The notes beneath the pieces were generated by a model, which saw only the letters and a program-made list of their open reading frames with translations, did not search any database and was not told the origin of the DNA. 36,469 bases of DNA from assembly GCA_025062195.1 (NCBI GenBank), contig JANXAS010000032.1, positions 1 to 36,469 on the forward strand. The letters are read 5' to 3'. Below are positions 21,803-28,408 of this stretch, one piece after another. The stretch's first letter is position 1; each line of letters starts with the position of its first letter. This DNA comes from Armatimonadota bacterium. GTDB lineage: Bacteria > Armatimonadota > Fervidibacteria > Fervidibacterales > Thermosaccharophagaceae. A program made the position numbers and the translations under genes.

Positions 21803-21831
21803 AGGGTGAGGCTATAGCCGAGCCAAAAAGC
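21803..21831 (-). repeat. Family D repeat overlapping the PAP2 stop codon
   Basis: On the minus strand the stretch GCTTTTTGGCTCGGCTATAG matches repeats at 23055 and 23192. Here it supplies the last codons and the TAG stop of the PAP2 gene. Confidence 0.55.
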
Positions 21832-22507
21832 TACAAAAACATTTGCGGTAAAGAGCGTTTCGTTTTATCCACATCAAAATTAGCTTGCCCAACAGAAGCA
21901 CAATTGATGCCACTGCGTATCCGACTATACATCCTGCAATGACATCGCTCGGGTAGTGCACCCCAAGGTATATCCTTGAATAGGCAACAAGTGATGCGAT
22001 GACAAACAAAGATGGCTTGCCTTCTGGAATAAAATGCGATAGCGCTCTTGCAGCAGCGAACCAATTTGCTGCGTGTGCTGACGGAAAGGAAGGTGATTTC
22101 CCTGCTGGCTCAATCGTGCGCACACCCGCTTCAACCAATGCTGGACGAGGTCGCTTCCATATGTCTTTCATGAATCTGCCAGTAAGCAAGTCTGTAAGCG
22201 AAAGCACAAGTAAGACAGCGATTAATGCCATAGCCATGCGCTTAAACCCTTTACAGCACCATAGCCATACAATCAATAGCAGCCAAAACAGCGCATTCTT
22301 CCCAAGATGAGTCACAGTAAGCATAAGCATGTCGGCAAATTTGTGTTCGCAATCCGGGTTGAGCAATTTGAGGAGCTTAGCATCAACCTCTTTAATAGGC
22401 TCCACGAAAGGTGTGACGGAGCAAAGCAGGAACACAAACACTAATACGATTTTAATTGCTACAATGAATCGCCCTTTGCCTAAGTCTCCTGCGGCTTTCT
22501 CGCCCAT
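21812..22507 (-). CDS. PAP2 family membrane phosphatase
   Basis: The roughly 231-residue protein has about five or six TM segments and all three PAP2 motifs: KDIWKRPRP (KX6RP), SFPSAHAANW (PSGH type) and SRIYLGVHYPSD (SRX5HX3D), with both catalytic histidines. Bacterial members dephosphorylate undecaprenyl pyrophosphate or phosphatidic or phosphatidylglycerol phosphate; which one applies here is not readable. A GTG at 22510 and ATG at 22507 are adjacent starts, with AAGGTG overlapping. The last residues (about SFLARL) and the stop codon are encoded inside a dispersed repeat, so the C-terminal tail may have been altered by repeat insertion. Confidence 0.93.
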   Translation of the reverse strand: MGEKAAGDLGKGRFIVAIKIVLVFVFLLCSVTPFVEPIKEVDAKLLKLLNPDCEHKFADMLMLTVTHLGKNALFWLLLIVWLWCCKGFKRMAMALIAVLLVLSLTDLLTGRFMKDIWKRPRPALVEAGVRTIEPAGKSPSFPSAHAANWFAAARALSHFIPEGKPSLFVIASLVAYSRIYLGVHYPSDVIAGCIVGYAVASIVLLLGKLILMWIKRNALYRKCFCSFLARL

Positions 22508-22727
22508 CACCTTAAGCTATCACCTTGGCATTTCGGTATTTGCTCAAAACAGGAGTTACGATTGAATGCGTGGGCAGCTGTCAGGCAACCAGCACCATTT
22601 GCTTTGAACGGTTTCTGCACCATGAATGGCACACTATGCCAAACTTCTTGGGCAATAAACCCCGTTCAATTTTATTTGGCTTAACTTGAACACAACAAAA
22701 ATGCTTGTAAAACTTTAGGGCACAAAA

Positions 22728-22918
22728 CTCGTTTCGCTCCTTACTTCAAATGTTGTTGGTATGCGCTTTTCACAACCATGCTTTTTCAAAACCATACCAT
22801 GGACTTTAGCCCATGGTCGCTGGCGAATTTTTGAATGCCGTCTTCAAATGGCATAATTTTTCGCCGAATGAATTCGGCGTTCATTAATTCGCCATCAACC
22901 ACTGGCTAAAGCCAGTGG
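22728..22918. repeat. Family B multi-hairpin element, copy 1
   Basis: It opens with a family-A-like outer end (TTTCGCTCCTTACTTCAAAT at 22732) and then carries hairpins in order: CCATGGACTTTAGCCCATGG (22797-22816), a decayed GCCGTCTTCAAATGGC, the perfect CGCCGAATGAATTCGGCG (22862-22879), and the perfect CCACTGGCTAAAGCCAGTGG (22899-22918). Confidence 0.75.
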
Positions 22919-22935
22919 CATGGATAAACAAAGCA

Positions 22936-23037
22936 CGCTTTTTCAAAACCATGCCATGAGCTTTAGCCCATAGTAGCTGACGAATTTTTGAGCGCCGTCT
23001 TTAGACGGCGGTGAAAATCTTGATGACGAATTTTTGA
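22936..23037. repeat. Family B element, copy 2 (partial)
   Basis: Repeats the start of copy 1: a CATGAGCTTTAGCCCATAG hairpin (imperfect), GTAGCTGACGAATTTTTGAG, and then the perfect hairpin GCCGTCTTTAGACGGC (22994-23009). The later hairpins are missing. Confidence 0.7.
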
Positions 23038-23054
23038 CCATTATTTACTCCAAA

Positions 23055-23220
23055 GCTTTTCGGCTCGGCAGTAGCCTCGCCCTACGAATTTTCCGTCACG
23101 ATTTTCCTCATTTCGGAGGGCAAGCCTACCGGCTTGCCGATTTTTCGGCAGAGCAGCAACCCTGCCCCAAGATTTTTTTCTTTGCTGAAAAATTTTGGCT
23201 CGGCAATAGCCTTGTCTTCC
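23055..23220. repeat. Family D repeats (two units) around a perfect hairpin
   Basis: GCTTTTCGGCTCGGCAGTAG at 23055 and ATTTTGGCTCGGCAATAGCC at 23192 are direct repeats. Between them lies GGCAAGCCTACCGGCTTGCC (23119-23138), an eight-pair hairpin. Confidence 0.6.
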
Positions 23221-23226
23221 CATCGG

Positions 23227-23333
23227 TTCGTAGTAAGGCACGGAACGAAGTGAAGTGCCGTCAAAAATGGAACATGGAACAAGGGACAATTTAGGACGCC
23301 AACTCGCTATCGCTTCGCGGCTAACTACGAACC
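23227..23333. repeat. Family A element, copy 3, with three exact-type heptads
   Basis: Inverse orientation to copies 1 and 2: left end GTAGTAAGGCACGGAACGAAG, shown by its first 20 bases from 23230, and right end GCTTCGCGGCTAACTAC. The centre reads TGGAACA, TGGAACA, AGGGACA (23268-23288). Confidence 0.75.
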
Positions 23334-23340
23334 TGCTGTT

Positions 23341-23476
23341 TTGTTGGTAGTCAGGCACGAAGCAAAGCGGAGTGCCGCCAAATAAGTGCAAGTGCTAAGT
23401 TCAAAGGGCAAGTAAAACTATAGCATCTCACTCTGCACCAACTTAACGCCACTTCGCTTCGTGGCTAACTAAGAAC
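23341..23476. repeat. Family A element, copy 4
   Basis: GTAGTCAGGCACGAAGC at 23348 pairs with GCTTCGTGGCTAACTA at 23456. The centre is a degenerate 7-bp run (AGTGCAA, GTGCTAA, GTTCAAA, GGGCAAG). Confidence 0.72.
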
Positions 23477-23562
23477 TTAAACAACAAAGGTTGTGGCAAA
23501 GGGTGTTTCATTTTTATTTGCTGCAAAATATTTCAGCGCCAATTGCATGGCTTTAGTCCATT

Positions 23563-24642
23563 TCACTTAAGCCATGGGAATTGAGTTATAAGGAAGTCAA
23601 GGCGCTTAATGAATAGCGAAAAGCGAGCCATCACTGTATTTCCGAATATCAATCCGAATGTCACCATCAAAAACAATCTCCCAATCAGTGCCGAAGTCCT
23701 TATAGTGGGGTGTTTGTGTTCAATAGTGAAGAAAAAGTAAATGAGCACACAGAGCAATGTGACAACGAAGACAATGTTGTTTAGTGTGAGCGATATGTCA
23801 CCTGGCACATAAATTGGGCGGAGTGATTTTGCAATTTGAGGATAGAATGTGAGCACGAATGCTTTGAAAACATAGCCAGATTGTAAGCCCATTATAGCGC
23901 CGATTACCAGACGGCTCATCCACGCAAATCTCGGGATGAATATAGTGTAGTATAACAAGCCTCCAACGAGTGCAAGTATCCAATACCATTTTCGCCCAAT
24001 GCAATGTCGCACATTGTCAATGTGCAAAGTTACACCGGCTTTCACGAGAGCGTCATCAGCAACAAACTCAACGATGCGCACACTTTTTAGGTCTATCTCG
24101 CCTTCCTTTGAGAGGTTTCGGAGATATAGCTTAACCTCCCGCCACCCTGAGAAATCAATCGGTATATAGCCACTTAGCCGCCCTTTAAAATTGCCGGTTT
24201 CATTCCCGGTCAAGATGCGCAAAATTATGCTCCCGTTGGTAGGTTTGGGTGAGTGCAACCAAAGCTTAATGTATCGGGCATCAATCCAATTAGCTGGTGG
24301 TGCAACAAAGCGAATTACCCTTACGCCTTTCACATCCCAACGGATGGATGCTTTACCTTCCATTTTGAACCGTTCATTAGGCAATGCACCTTCCCAACCG
24401 GTTAAGTTATCACATGCATTTACAACGATGGCATTTTCCGTCACCATAGGTTTAAACCATCTTGGCTCAAGCACTTCAGTTATCGTTATCGCAAGACCGT
24501 ATCCAGCAGCCACACCAATAAATATGTGCTCAAACAGCCTAAATAGCCTATTTTCACGGTATAAGATTGTGTAAATCCCAAGTGTGCATGCAGCTGCCAC
24601 AAAGTATGTGATTATTTCAACGGTGCGTTCGTCTATGCTCAT
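23563..24642 (-). CDS. Six-TM protein with inserted beta-sandwich-like domain, unknown function
   Basis: I do not recognise a family for the whole protein (359 residues). Two TM segments (about 8-28 and 38-57) are followed by a hydrophilic domain at about 72-213 whose pattern (WDVKGVRVIRFVAP, RYIKLWLHSP, GWREVKLYL, VRIVEFVADD, VTLHIDNVR) resembles galactose-binding/CBM-like jelly rolls. Four more TM segments follow (about 219-237, 242-265, 289-306, 313-340). The inserted domain should face one side of the membrane, probably the outside. The ATG lies four bases after the stop of the preceding gene, with GAGGGTTGA as ribosome binding site spanning that stop. Last gene of the membrane-protein set. 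Confidence 0.75.
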   Translation of the reverse strand: MSIDERTVEIITYFVAAACTLGIYTILYRENRLFRLFEHIFIGVAAGYGLAITITEVLEPRWFKPMVTENAIVVNACDNLTGWEGALPNERFKMEGKASIRWDVKGVRVIRFVAPPANWIDARYIKLWLHSPKPTNGSIILRILTGNETGNFKGRLSGYIPIDFSGWREVKLYLRNLSKEGEIDLKSVRIVEFVADDALVKAGVTLHIDNVRHCIGRKWYWILALVGGLLYYTIFIPRFAWMSRLVIGAIMGLQSGYVFKAFVLTFYPQIAKSLRPIYVPGDISLTLNNIVFVVTLLCVLIYFFFTIEHKHPTIRTSALIGRLFLMVTFGLIFGNTVMARFSLFIKRLDFLITQFPWLK

Positions 24643-24646
24643 ACCT

Positions 24647-25522
24647 TCAACCCTCTCTTCCTACTCTTTTTGCAGCCCACATTCCGAGATTACCGAGGGC
24701 TACAAGGATGATTATCAGCAAATGACCGGCAGATTGAGGCAGCATAGCCCTTTTACCACCACTTGCTATTTTCAGCATCTCTTCATACTCAGCGGCGCCT
24801 TTCAGCCCAACAAGTAAACCGGAAAGCTGACCGGTGTCCAAGTATGGGAATTGTTCGGGTCCAATAATGCCAGTGCATCCTTGTGCGAGTTTTACACCAA
24901 ATTGGGCATGGAATGTGGCAATGTATAGCGGCAATAGACCAGCGCCGGTAAACTCGGCAACAAGCCCAATATCCTTTGCGGAACGAACATTCCTCATCAT
25001 TGGGATTTCGTTAATTGGCGTGCCCATTTTGTCCTGCCTGACTGCAGCGTGAATGTCACGGCACATCCTTTCAAGAAACATTTGCCCGCCGGTTATCCAA
25101 CCAAAATTGCAAAAATCAATTCCATAACGATATCCATACTTCTTTCCGAGCTCTTCTGCATACGCCTGAGCAATAGTTGGACCAACCTGATCAAGCCCCA
25201 TAATGATGAACTTCTTACGGCAACGCATCAAATGCTCTATTACAGCCCTACACTGAGGTCCATTCTCACCGAGTGTGCCCGGATCAAAATCGCAAGCCAC
25301 TAACACAACCTTATCATTGGGCACACTCTCAACTGTTTCAAAGAATGAGCGCGCAGCCCTTGTAGGATACATTGGAAGTATGGGCAAATTTATGCCAATG
25401 TATGGCGCAATTATGGGAAAGCCTATCAAAAGCCAGACAAGCATGTATATGATACGCCTATCAACCTGCTGAAAACGGGCAAATATAACGAACATGAACG
25501 ATATTAACCGCCCGATGTTCAT
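24647..25522 (-). CDS. Membrane-anchored protein with alpha/beta-like domain, unknown function
   Basis: A 291-residue protein with one TM near the N-terminus (about 26-46) and one at the C-terminus (about 265-286). The region between has alternating strands and helices: KVVLVACDFDPGTLGENGPQ, KKFIIMGLDQVGPTIAQAY, RYGIDFCNFGWITGG, and TGIIGPEQFPYLDTGQLSGL. I recognise no catalytic motif; the CDFDPGT and GENGPQ turns are likely functional because they are glycine-, proline- and acid-rich. AGGTGA lies six bases before the ATG. Four bases separate it from the next gene, so translation is likely coupled. Confidence 0.72.
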   Translation of the reverse strand: MNIGRLISFMFVIFARFQQVDRRIIYMLVWLLIGFPIIAPYIGINLPILPMYPTRAARSFFETVESVPNDKVVLVACDFDPGTLGENGPQCRAVIEHLMRCRKKFIIMGLDQVGPTIAQAYAEELGKKYGYRYGIDFCNFGWITGGQMFLERMCRDIHAAVRQDKMGTPINEIPMMRNVRSAKDIGLVAEFTGAGLLPLYIATFHAQFGVKLAQGCTGIIGPEQFPYLDTGQLSGLLVGLKGAAEYEEMLKIASGGKRAMLPQSAGHLLIIILVALGNLGMWAAKRVGREG

Positions 25523-25585
25523 GCTGCTTCACCTATCCTGAAAGCATGGTATCCGCACACGCAAGATATGCACCATTTATGGCCA

Positions 25586-26431
25586 CTAAAATTGCCTTCC
25601 AAAATATCCGCCCCTTTCGAGGCTGAGCCAAATGCGCAATGCCATTGCAAGCGCCCCAACCCAAACACCAAAGAGAATGCCACGCTGAGCTGGCATGTTA
25701 ATGTTTGACAATAGCCATTCTGAAAGGACTTCAAACCTGAGAAACCTAAAAACGCTATCATCCGGTATCCAGTGCGTCAACCACATTCCAACCGGAACTT
25801 GCCCGAGCATGACTATGAGTGCACCAGCCATGAGCAAAGCAGCTTCAGCGGTGCGTATGCGAAACGCCCTGTAGGCAGCCGATGTGATGAAGAAGGCAAG
25901 TAGCGAAAAGACTGTAGCATTTAGCGCAGTGTATGCGCCCTCAAATAGGACTTTGAATGCCGCCGGAAATAGCCCCATACGACCTTCAGGAACATCGCCA
26001 GAAAAAAGTGTTGGAGCGTAGCGGTTGACCATCGTCACAACAAACATGAGCACCATACTGACAAAGAAGGCAATGCTGTTTCCCCAACCCTCCCTTTTTT
26101 GAGCGATATTCCTTGCATGCACAATGCAAAGGTTCATTATACCAAGTCCGACTGTAAAGGCAGCCATCACACCCACAGCATCACCAAGTGGATTCAACCA
26201 TGGAGTAAGAAAACGGTTGCGAAATGGGGTTAGAGCAGTGCCATCAGGGATAAAGAACTCAAGTGGGTAATACAAGCCAGCGATGAATGTGACGAAAACT
26301 ATGACCTTCATGCGCAAAGAAGGCGTCATGTTGTGCATGATTGTGAGAAGGATAACGCTAACGCAAACTGCGATTGCCATAAGTGCAATGTTTAACGCCA
26401 TGCTTTCAACAGGCGGAAACACACCTACCAC
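25586..26431 (-). CDS. Seven-TM membrane protein, unknown function
   Basis: A 281-residue protein with about seven hydrophobic segments: ALNIALMAIAVCVSVILLT, VIVFVTFIAGLYYPLEFF, VMAAFTVGLGIMNLCIV, IAFFVSMVLMFVVTM, NATVFSLLAFFITSAAYRAF, LLMAGALIVMLGQVPVGMWL and GILFGVWVGALAMALRIWL. Loop motifs such as LEFFIPDGTALTPFRNRF and GDVPEGRMGL do not point to a known transporter. The start GTG 26431 is tentative; MALNIALM (ATG, codon 11) is an alternative. It is followed 63 bases later by the alpha/beta-domain gene. Confidence 0.7.
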   Translation of the reverse strand: MVGVFPPVESMALNIALMAIAVCVSVILLTIMHNMTPSLRMKVIVFVTFIAGLYYPLEFFIPDGTALTPFRNRFLTPWLNPLGDAVGVMAAFTVGLGIMNLCIVHARNIAQKREGWGNSIAFFVSMVLMFVVTMVNRYAPTLFSGDVPEGRMGLFPAAFKVLFEGAYTALNATVFSLLAFFITSAAYRAFRIRTAEAALLMAGALIVMLGQVPVGMWLTHWIPDDSVFRFLRFEVLSEWLLSNINMPAQRGILFGVWVGALAMALRIWLSLERGGYFGRQF

Positions 26432-26692
26432 CCCTTACTGTTCGCTGCGAATTGTGAGCACTGCAAACAACGCAAATATTTCCAGCTCGTCAGCAGCCTC
26501 ACCAGCTAAATTGCCAAATGAATTTGTGCTCAACTTGACTTAAAGGCAAACAACGCAACAATGGGCAAAGTCCACCCACAAAATTTCGGACGCATTTCAT
26601 TCTTTCATTCGCCACTGCGTCATCCGATGGCTAAAGCAAATGGCATTGATGACTATGCGCCAGCAACTTTTTGAGCACAGCTCAAAGATGCT

Positions 26693-26763
26693 TGTAGCAA
26701 GGCACGAAGCGGAGCGCTATTAAAGACGCAACTATAAATACCGCCTCGCGGCTCACTACGAAC
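26693..26763. repeat. Family A element, copy 5 (short)
   Basis: GTAGCAAGGCACGAAGC and CCTCGCGGCTCACTACGAAC form the usual inverse ends; the centre is only about 40 bases. Confidence 0.65.
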
Positions 26764-26779
26764 TATGCTTTGACAGGGC

Positions 26780-26872
26780 GCCAACGATACATAGGTCTTT
26801 TGAAACGCAAGCATGCAGCAATGTTGATTGCCTCAAAGCACAGTGCCAATGATACATAGGTCTTTTGAAACG
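26780..26872 (+). repeat. Two 28-bp direct repeats with CRISPR-like spacing
   Basis: Copies at 26780-26807 and 26845-26872 differ at one base (GCCAACGAT versus GCCAATGAT) and share ATACATAGGTCTTTTGAAAC. The intervening 37 bases are unique. The repeat ends in GAAAC(G), like many type I/III CRISPR repeats. No cas genes and no clear third copy are present; a poor match lies at about 26924-26938. Confidence 0.7.
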
Positions 26873-27125
26873 GTTAGGACTTGCTCAGTTGGCATTGTTT
26901 TGACTCTCGGGGCTTATCCCCCGATGGTTTTTTAAATCACCGTCACAGGCGAATGGCAACGCTGCCGATGCCGTTAAAAACTTACGCTGTTGATTTTATT
27001 TTGCACTGGCAAACGGGAGTCCGCCCAGCAAAATCAAAAACGAAAGATACGAATAACTCAGACAACTTAAAAGCTGCAAAGCCGCCGCTATACTCAAGCT
27101 GCGCAATCCCTAATTGCAAAGCCGC

Positions 27126-27908
27126 TCATTGCCCGCCGGTAAGGAACTTGAGCAAGCCGTTTAATTCAGTCCAGTATTGCGAAAGCGTGGCGATGGTCAT
27201 CCCAGAGAGTGTAAACGCAGCAAGCAGTATCTTTGAATAGTCCTGACCAACAACGCTGCCAAGGTGTATCGGGTCTCGTGACAGGTATGCTGAAGCTGCA
27301 TAAAATTCCTCGCCGATGATCGTGTAATCACATGCAGCAATGAAGAAAGGCACCTGAAGAGTTGATGCAGTTCCAGCAATCTGTATCGCACCAAGTGATT
27401 GTCCAGTCTCGGCAAGTATGAGCGACTCTGCCGCGAACGGTCCAAAGAAGAAATTGGCAGCAACCTTCTCTCGGTTCATTATCCCGATGACGCCGGATGC
27501 GTATGCAAACTGGCTCCCGGAAAGGAAACGCACATCCTCGCGCCTAAACGCATCTGGGTGACCAGCTTCGGCATACGCTTCCTTGAGCACCTCTTCGGCG
27601 ATCGTGTATACAACCGTATCAATGACCGGCACTATGACCCTGTTTCTGTATCGTCCGGCAAGCCTCGCCACATGCCCAGCAATTGCGAGTGCCTGAAATG
27701 TTTCAACCTCAACTCCACCAAGTCCTACAGAGAAAAGCATTGGGCGTCCCATCTCAGTAGCTCTTCCAACTGCCTCCTCAATCGCATCAATACCCGGCAA
27801 ACGGCGAATGAAAAGTTTCCTGCCGCGCATGGATGAAAGTATCCCGTAAAGGATGAGCAAAGAGACAGCGCTCACAACAAACAGGTGTATAAGTTGGGCG
27901 TGCTCCAT
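27126..27908 (-). CDS. DUF6754 domain membrane protein
   Basis: The 260-residue protein has an N-terminal TM (about 8-27) followed by LPGIDAIEEAVGRATEMGRP, then SVGLGGVEVETFQALAIAG, VIVPVIDTVVYTIAEEV, REDVRFLSGSQFAYASGV, ANFFFGPFAAESLILAETG, GAIQIAGTASTLQVPFFIAA, ACDYTIIGEEFYAASAYLSR, and a C-terminal hydrophobic stretch. This matches my recollection of DUF6754, a family of unknown function in several thermophilic and Chloroflexi-like bacteria. The alternation suggests an alpha/beta domain held at the membrane. GTG at 27911 and ATG at 27908 are adjacent starts; GGTGGG lies upstream. It is the first large gene of the leftward membrane-protein set. Confidence 0.85.
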   Translation of the reverse strand: MEHAQLIHLFVVSAVSLLILYGILSSMRGRKLFIRRLPGIDAIEEAVGRATEMGRPMLFSVGLGGVEVETFQALAIAGHVARLAGRYRNRVIVPVIDTVVYTIAEEVLKEAYAEAGHPDAFRREDVRFLSGSQFAYASGVIGIMNREKVAANFFFGPFAAESLILAETGQSLGAIQIAGTASTLQVPFFIAACDYTIIGEEFYAASAYLSRDPIHLGSVVGQDYSKILLAAFTLSGMTIATLSQYWTELNGLLKFLTGGQ

Positions 27909-28102
27909 CACCTTTACCCACCTTTGTTAGATTTGCCCTCGCCGAAACTATAATGCAAACAGCCGGCGAAATCGCGCTCACATATCTTTTTACACTAAAA
28001 ACCTTTCTGCCCACGGCTCAAATTGATTGGATGGGTGAAACCCATCACACAAAATGCGTTTGCTTAATACGCACACCAAAAACAAGTGTGCCCCTTCATC
28101 AC

Positions 28103-28408
28103 TCAATTTGCGCCACTTTTATTGCCCGAAGATTTTTCTGCAGCGAGTTCCTCAATTCGTCTTATGAGCGCTTCAATGCCTTCACCCGTGCTCAATATAG
28201 CTCCAGCTTCGTGCAACGCATTAACGCCAAGAAAGGGAGCAAGGAATGGAAAGGCAAAAAGCAAACTGTGCCCCACAATATTTGCAAGCGGTTTATGAAG
28301 CTCAAGGAAAAGCACAGCTGGCACTTCCAAACCATAGCTCACAATCTTTCTTGCGATGCGTTCAATCACCTCTTTTTCCTTATCCTCTGGAAGACGTTCA
28401 AACAGCAA
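28103..28408 (-). CDS. Small conserved-looking hypothetical protein
   Basis: A 101-residue product beginning at TTG 28408, with GGTGAT six bases upstream. It is amphipathic then hydrophobic: ERIARKIVSYGLEVPAVLFL, ELHKPLANIVGHSLLFAFPF, LAPFLGVNALHEAG, and an acidic helix IEALIRRIEELAAEKSSG. The composition looks like a real protein: charged helices around one possible membrane-associated segment (about 41-62). I do not recognise a family. It lies 191 bases upstream of the DUF6754 gene in the same direction and may be the first gene of that unit. It is divergent from glgA. Confidence 0.65.
   Translation of the reverse strand: MLFERLPEDKEKEVIERIARKIVSYGLEVPAVLFLELHKPLANIVGHSLLFAFPFLAPFLGVNALHEAGAILSTGEGIEALIRRIEELAAEKSSGNKSGAN

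Follow-up and report, generated by a model that had tools for sequence, protein, structure and literature searches.

A conserved membrane gene set around DUF6754 in Armatimonadota appears to be most of an undescribed multi-protein envelope machine

We analysed a stretch of 36,469 nucleotides from an Armatimonadota genome (contig JANXAS010000032.1; hereafter the window), in which five leftward genes encode a protein of 101 amino acids (aa), H101, a DUF6754 protein, a protein with seven transmembrane (TM) segments, an alpha/beta protein with two membrane anchors (AB) and a protein with six TM segments (Table 1). These five genes appear to be most of a membrane machine that many phyla carry together with an ATPase-like protein and that has apparently never been described. 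A first-pass annotation had placed the five open reading frames (ORFs) and the gaps of 4 bases (24643-24646, AB/6-TM) and 63 bases (25523-25585, 7-TM/AB) correctly, and had proposed that the genes form one undescribed membrane system. That proposal is strongly supported by the gene order of 82 cassettes, the co-divergence of matched paralogues and joint loss, and all the parts very probably belong to one system. The set as first listed lacked some members: a MutL-like ATPase, a barrel-sandwich protein and, in most cases, a small PH-like protein. The usual order is PH-like protein, 101-aa protein, MutL/GlmL-like ATPase, barrel-sandwich protein, DUF6754, 7-TM, alpha/beta and 6-TM proteins.

Within the window's own phylum, Armatimonadota, 40 loci were compared and the large majority run PH-like, 101-aa, DUF6754, 7-TM, AB, 6-TM, with gaps of mostly a few bases. 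Of 291 genomes of the phylum, 252 have DUF6754; the 14 control genomes all lack it. When named genomes were scanned, upwards of 580 sites fitted the DUF6754 pattern, of which the best 80 were taken, so that the true breadth exceeds the lineages given here: Armatimonadota/WS1, Poribacteria, WOR-3/Stahlbacteria, Latescibacterota, Edwardsbacteria, Nitrospira, Zixiibacteriota, Planctomycetota, Methylomirabilis and others. In Planctomycetota, 39 of 148 genomes have DUF6754. Complete cassettes of DUF6754, 7-TM, AB and 6-TM genes, in fixed order and almost touching, number 82 over about a dozen phyla. Outside the window DUF6754 is followed by the 7-TM gene in 89 cases (median gap 9 bp), the 7-TM gene by AB in 85 (3 bp) and AB by the 6-TM gene in 83 (6 bp); upstream, the barrel-sandwich gene precedes DUF6754 in 42 cases (4 bp) and is itself preceded by the ATPase gene in 36. 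The first-pass annotation had named scattering of the genes, or their absence beside DUF6754, as grounds for refutation, and in relatives they stay together; recurrence of the same order over a dozen phyla puts the gene set far beyond chance.

The four cassette proteins have also diverged together. Distance matrices for the 82 cassettes correlate with r = 0.85-0.93, and cassettes stand in tandem, two or three together, at ten loci (L097, L117, L100, L107, L110, L132, L098, L133, L124, L143), for which the matched pairing of copies gives a mean r of 0.914 against 0.441 (standard deviation 0.063) when copies are swapped within a genome; none of 300 such shuffles reached the observed value. The four genes have been duplicated and kept as matched sets, as expected of a complex, and several of the tandem loci have a single ATPase gene and a single barrel-sandwich gene. 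Among 205 genomes of the phylum that are at least 90% complete, the ATPase is absent from 13, the barrel-sandwich protein from 11 and DUF6754 from 13 (absences of the last partly read as gaps in a list of positives), with all three missing from 10. Fisher tests of joint retention and loss gave p = 3e-12, 1e-13 and 1.5e-16. Because these tests ignore relatedness, the sounder measure is the number of independent losses, at least four, the shared absences spanning at least four lineages that include two genomes of 1.5 Mb. Of 23 genomes from other phyla in which no ATPase gene was seen beside the cassette, 22 have a match to a MutL-family protein at another place, with E < 1e-200 and about 60% identity in 20.

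The genes for the ATPase (~600 aa) and the barrel-sandwich protein (~375 aa) lie between the 101-aa gene and DUF6754 in one large clade of the phylum. In the window genome they are on other contigs: G000:C110:11226-13004 holds the ATPase, 65% identical to the query, and G000:C82:70893-72020 the barrel-sandwich gene (56%). Homologues of H101 are encoded directly upstream of DUF6754 within the phylum; outside it their genes immediately precede or overlap the ATPase gene (n = 30, median gap -4) and often keep this position where the ATPase is unlinked from the cassette. The ATPases of two relatives belong to the PF13941 MutL family (427.6 and 435.6 bits, cut-off 27; E 7e-128), and the window genome's own protein is 65% identical to one of them. 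The ATPase scores below the cut-offs of the GlmL equivalog NF040745 (255.2 against 475) and of the subfamily TIGR01319 (197.4 against 204.05). ATPases of the other aligned loci are 56-60% identical to the copy in the window genome, and the ASKHA motifs DCGSTTTK and GxATTD are invariant in the alignment; the intact motifs suggest that the MutL-like protein hydrolyses ATP. The N-terminal half of the barrel-sandwich protein shows weak RnfC_N or biotin_lipoyl likeness (E 3e-5 at best) and its C-terminus is weakly KOW-like. The small PH-like protein has two TM segments and owes its name to a reading of its sequence, no family having been matched; its gene was not seen at the loci examined in the window genome.

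A Pfam scan of the five window proteins named only DUF6754, the other four having no family above cut-off. The 261-aa protein is, judged by its profile match, a full-length member of PF20539 (E 1.6e-98; 329.4 bits where the cut-off is 27; match over positions 8-252 of the 257 in the profile) and is 42-52% identical to homologues of other phyla; the conserved 'MxHA' start suggests that it begins at the ATG at 27908. The first-pass annotation had also described apparent alpha/beta domains at the membrane in two proteins. AlphaFold2 models of DUF6754 (predicted local distance difference test score, pLDDT, 94.4; 56 sequences) and AB (pLDDT 95.0; 66 sequences) both consist of a TM helix, six alternating strands and helices and a second TM helix, with elements that pair one to one apart from an additional segment in AB. 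The like order of elements might reflect homology between the two, for which a profile comparison gave no significance. Conserved polar residues lie near the strand ends of both domains, and the last TM helix of AB has a conserved His and Asn. Hydropathy agrees with the TM counts first given, with two anchors in AB, 7-8 stretches in the 281-aa protein and 6 in the 359-aa protein; it finds one stretch in the 101-aa protein and only the N-terminal anchor of DUF6754, whose second anchor is helix 214-243 of the model.

The two domains probably face opposite sides of the membrane, as judged from the positive-inside pattern. DUF6754 has positive charge after its first TM helix and, in other lineages, a signal-like stretch and an Fn3 domain ahead of that helix, and its domain would therefore be cytoplasmic; in AB the charges precede the first TM helix and follow the last one, which would place the AB domain outside. 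Among structures in the PDB the best matches were weak, SIS or Rossmann folds for DUF6754 and GT-B-like domains for AB, all with a TM-score on the query of about 0.35 or less, so that neither has a close relative among solved structures. Profiles of DUF6754, AB, the barrel-sandwich protein, the ATPase and the 6-TM protein likewise gave no significant match to the sequences of solved structures.

Invariant charged residues mark both polytopic proteins, R188, E196 and R266 in the 7-TM protein and E38, R340 and R347 in the 6-TM protein. The latter carries in the window a beta-sandwich-like insertion, predicted to lie outside the membrane, which the first reading had taken for a possible sugar-binding domain. 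It is weakly like Lyase_N, the N-terminal domain of polysaccharide lyases (E 2.7e-5; 24.5 bits, under the cut-off of 26). It is not a core part: of 36 aligned homologues from the phylum only those of the window and of L032 and L033, two genomes of the same order, have it. The insertion is a late accessory, like the Fn3 domain on DUF6754 elsewhere. An apparent fusion of the 7-TM and AB proteins in L151 was rejected as a frameshift artefact, the joint reading as out-of-frame sequence, and was not used.

We tentatively favour a reading in which a conserved machine of several proteins, its membrane part encoded by the window genes, is driven by ATP and moves or hands over a ligand. On the cytoplasmic side, the ASKHA-fold MutL/GlmL-like ATPase and a barrel-sandwich adaptor would work with the DUF6754 domain, which is anchored in the membrane; the core within the membrane would consist of the 7-TM and 6-TM proteins; and the AB domain would face the envelope, joined in many species by Fn3 on DUF6754 and here by the beta-sandwich of the 6-TM protein. 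By binding and hydrolysing ATP, the MutL-like protein may then drive a change in the core that moves the ligand, or hands it over, between the outer AB and inner DUF6754 domains, and one ATPase and adaptor could serve several four-gene cassettes. A role in transport proper, as an ATP-driven envelope transporter, is put forward with reserve. Several points weigh against this reading. Transport, ATP hydrolysis and physical contact are all inferred; ASKHA ATPases are not known to drive transporters directly; the fold searches with DUF6754 and AB gave no well-scoring transporter or binding protein; the neighbours of cassettes and ATPase genes point to no ligand; and the window genome has its ATPase and barrel-sandwich genes away from the cassette.

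The same parts could instead form a membrane-bound enzyme complex, a possibility that we consider unlikely, in which the Rossmann-like DUF6754 and AB make or modify an envelope component (a lipid or a glycan precursor) and the MutL-like protein is their ATP-dependent activator. Related ASKHA proteins activate radical enzymes, and GlmL relatives serve enzymes as accessory proteins. The polar residues of the DUF6754 domain are very highly conserved, which would suit catalysis, as would the weak likeness of DUF6754 to SIS sugar-isomerase folds (MurQ, GmhA) and of AB to GT-B glycosyltransferase domains. However, the low TM-scores of all these matches and the lack of any known catalytic motif argue against an enzyme, and two polytopic proteins without soluble domains better suit a channel or carrier.

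The first-pass annotation had also suggested a surface-polymer role, which the gene neighbourhoods do not confirm. Genes of Wza/Wzz type adjoin the ATPase gene in three lineages, a phosphodiester glycosidase (NAGPA) gene follows the barrel-sandwich gene in four loci, and Fn3 or sugar-lyase-like sandwich domains lie outside the membrane. Yet of 76 ATPase or barrel-sandwich loci only 6 have such neighbours, and of 41 cassette loci none, with no conserved linkage to Wza/Wzz or glycosyltransferase genes; the Wza-type genes alone (three loci) are near chance by estimate, and the sandwich domains are not universal. Handling or export of a surface polysaccharide is accordingly improbable. The loci with Wza/Wzz-type or NAGPA neighbours, from a few lineages of the phylum, are L177, L174, L170, L175, L180 and L202; a link to polysaccharide export drawn from three early matches was abandoned when it failed to hold after 40 further loci were added. 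We regard as comparably improbable a sensing or signalling complex in which AB and Fn3 detect a ligand from outside and DUF6754 passes the signal to the ATPase: there are predicted domains on both sides of the membrane and the tandem cassettes look like a receptor family, but no conserved partner across phyla is a kinase, a cyclase, a regulator or a DNA-binding protein. The outer-membrane marker Omp85 was dropped as a discriminator because it is uninformative, being found in 30 of 30 genomes.

That the MutL-like protein is an ordinary reactivase of a B12-dependent mutase, its linkage to membrane genes being incidental, has the strong PF13941 match in its favour and is nonetheless very improbable and largely refuted, since glutamate mutase E (PF06368) was found in none of 25 genomes tested and methylmalonyl-CoA mutase (PF01642) in 3 of 20 system-bearing genomes, the window genome not among them, the score falls far under the GlmL cut-off, and the ATPase is lost jointly with DUF6754. 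The check covered these two mutase families, and by it the ATPase is not a glutamate mutase reactivase. The sub-cut-off GlmL scores, and carriers that lack glutamate mutase and mostly lack methylmalonyl-CoA mutase, make the PF13941 name an unreliable guide to the job of the ATPase here.

Table 1. Features of the DUF6754 locus in the window
Feature	Position	Strand	Description
H101, 101-aa protein	28103..28408	-	Has a single hydrophobic stretch; first of the core genes
DUF6754 protein, 261 aa	27126..27911	-	N-terminal TM, (alpha/beta)6 domain, C-terminal TM
Non-coding spacer, 694 bp	26432..27125	.	Splits the cassette in the window genome
7-TM protein, 281 aa	25586..26431	-	Probable membrane core; start perhaps GTG at 26422
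Alpha/beta protein (AB), 291 aa	24647..25522	-	TM, predicted extracytoplasmic (alpha/beta)6 domain, TM
6-TM protein, 359 aa	23563..24642	-	Last cassette gene
Beta-sandwich-like insertion, ~150 aa	23986..24441	-	Between TM2 and TM3 of the 6-TM protein

The spacing of DUF6754 and the 7-TM gene in the window, 694 non-coding bases, compares with 15-55 in relatives (15 bp in L033 and 55 bp in L032). The spacer holds no conserved ORF and bears degenerate repeats that are present again at 22.7-23.5 kb. Such repeats, the TATCGCTTCGCGGCTAACTACGAAC family among them, are common to distant intergenic stretches of the window (22690-23480 and 26480-26765), suggesting dispersed non-coding repeats of this genome. 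The spacer also contains two near-identical 28-bp direct repeats, 65 bp apart (26780-26807 and 26845-26872), which resemble a CRISPR unit of 28 bp with a 37-bp spacer; the genome has no further occurrence of the core 21-mer, and with two copies genome-wide the CRISPR reading was rejected. Downstream and in the same direction, a PAP2 phosphatase gene (21812-22510) resembles undecaprenyl-diphosphate phosphatases; it was not found at the operon in relatives and was rejected as a member of the set. In 17 loci (L149:13344-14606 and 16 others), mostly from Nitrospira or related records, the cassette is followed by a gene for a Memo/AmmeMemoRadiSam-B protein with a weak PqqD-like N-terminal part, a possible lineage-specific additional component.

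The co-inherited module of seven to eight genes is nearly universal in Armatimonadota and is found also in Nitrospira, Planctomycetota, Poribacteria, WOR-3 and others. It points to a basic envelope process that model organisms, as the control genomes without DUF6754 indicate, could not reveal. Some Nitrospira, Armatimonadota and Planctomycetota are reported as cultivable; such hosts would make the question of its role directly testable.

PF20539 is a Pfam entry without function, partners or membrane context, and in the open-access literature we found no paper that mentions DUF6754 and none on such an operon. Seven proteins were compared with the PADLOC models of anti-phage defence and matched none. 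The likeness of the barrel-sandwich protein to the RnfC/NqrA barrel-sandwich domain stays below the family cut-off (RnfC_N 24.5 bits at best against 25.6, with most matches sub-cut-off), and no Fe-S or flavin redox domain was matched in it. ECF and other modular ATP-driven transporters are alike in logic only, in that one energising module perhaps serves several membrane cassettes; here the ATPase is of the ASKHA type, no ABC ATPase was matched among the scanned window proteins and operon representatives, and the membrane proteins match no known transporter family. A further comparison is with the GlmL/MutL accessory proteins of B12-dependent mutases (PF13941, TIGR01319, NF040745), which share the domain family and ATP-binding motifs of the system's ATPase. 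That ATPase differs from them in being about 120 residues longer at its C-terminus, in scoring under the curated GlmL cut-offs, in being encoded with membrane proteins and in having carriers without the cognate glutamate mutase, so that the family-based name 'MutL/GlmL' would conceal it. A tentative reading is of an energised envelope machine of an unrecognised class, in which a GlmL-type ASKHA ATPase, by way of a barrel-sandwich adaptor, would power a membrane complex of four proteins that has Rossmann-like domains on both membrane faces, carried by a dozen phyla with matched cassette duplicates.

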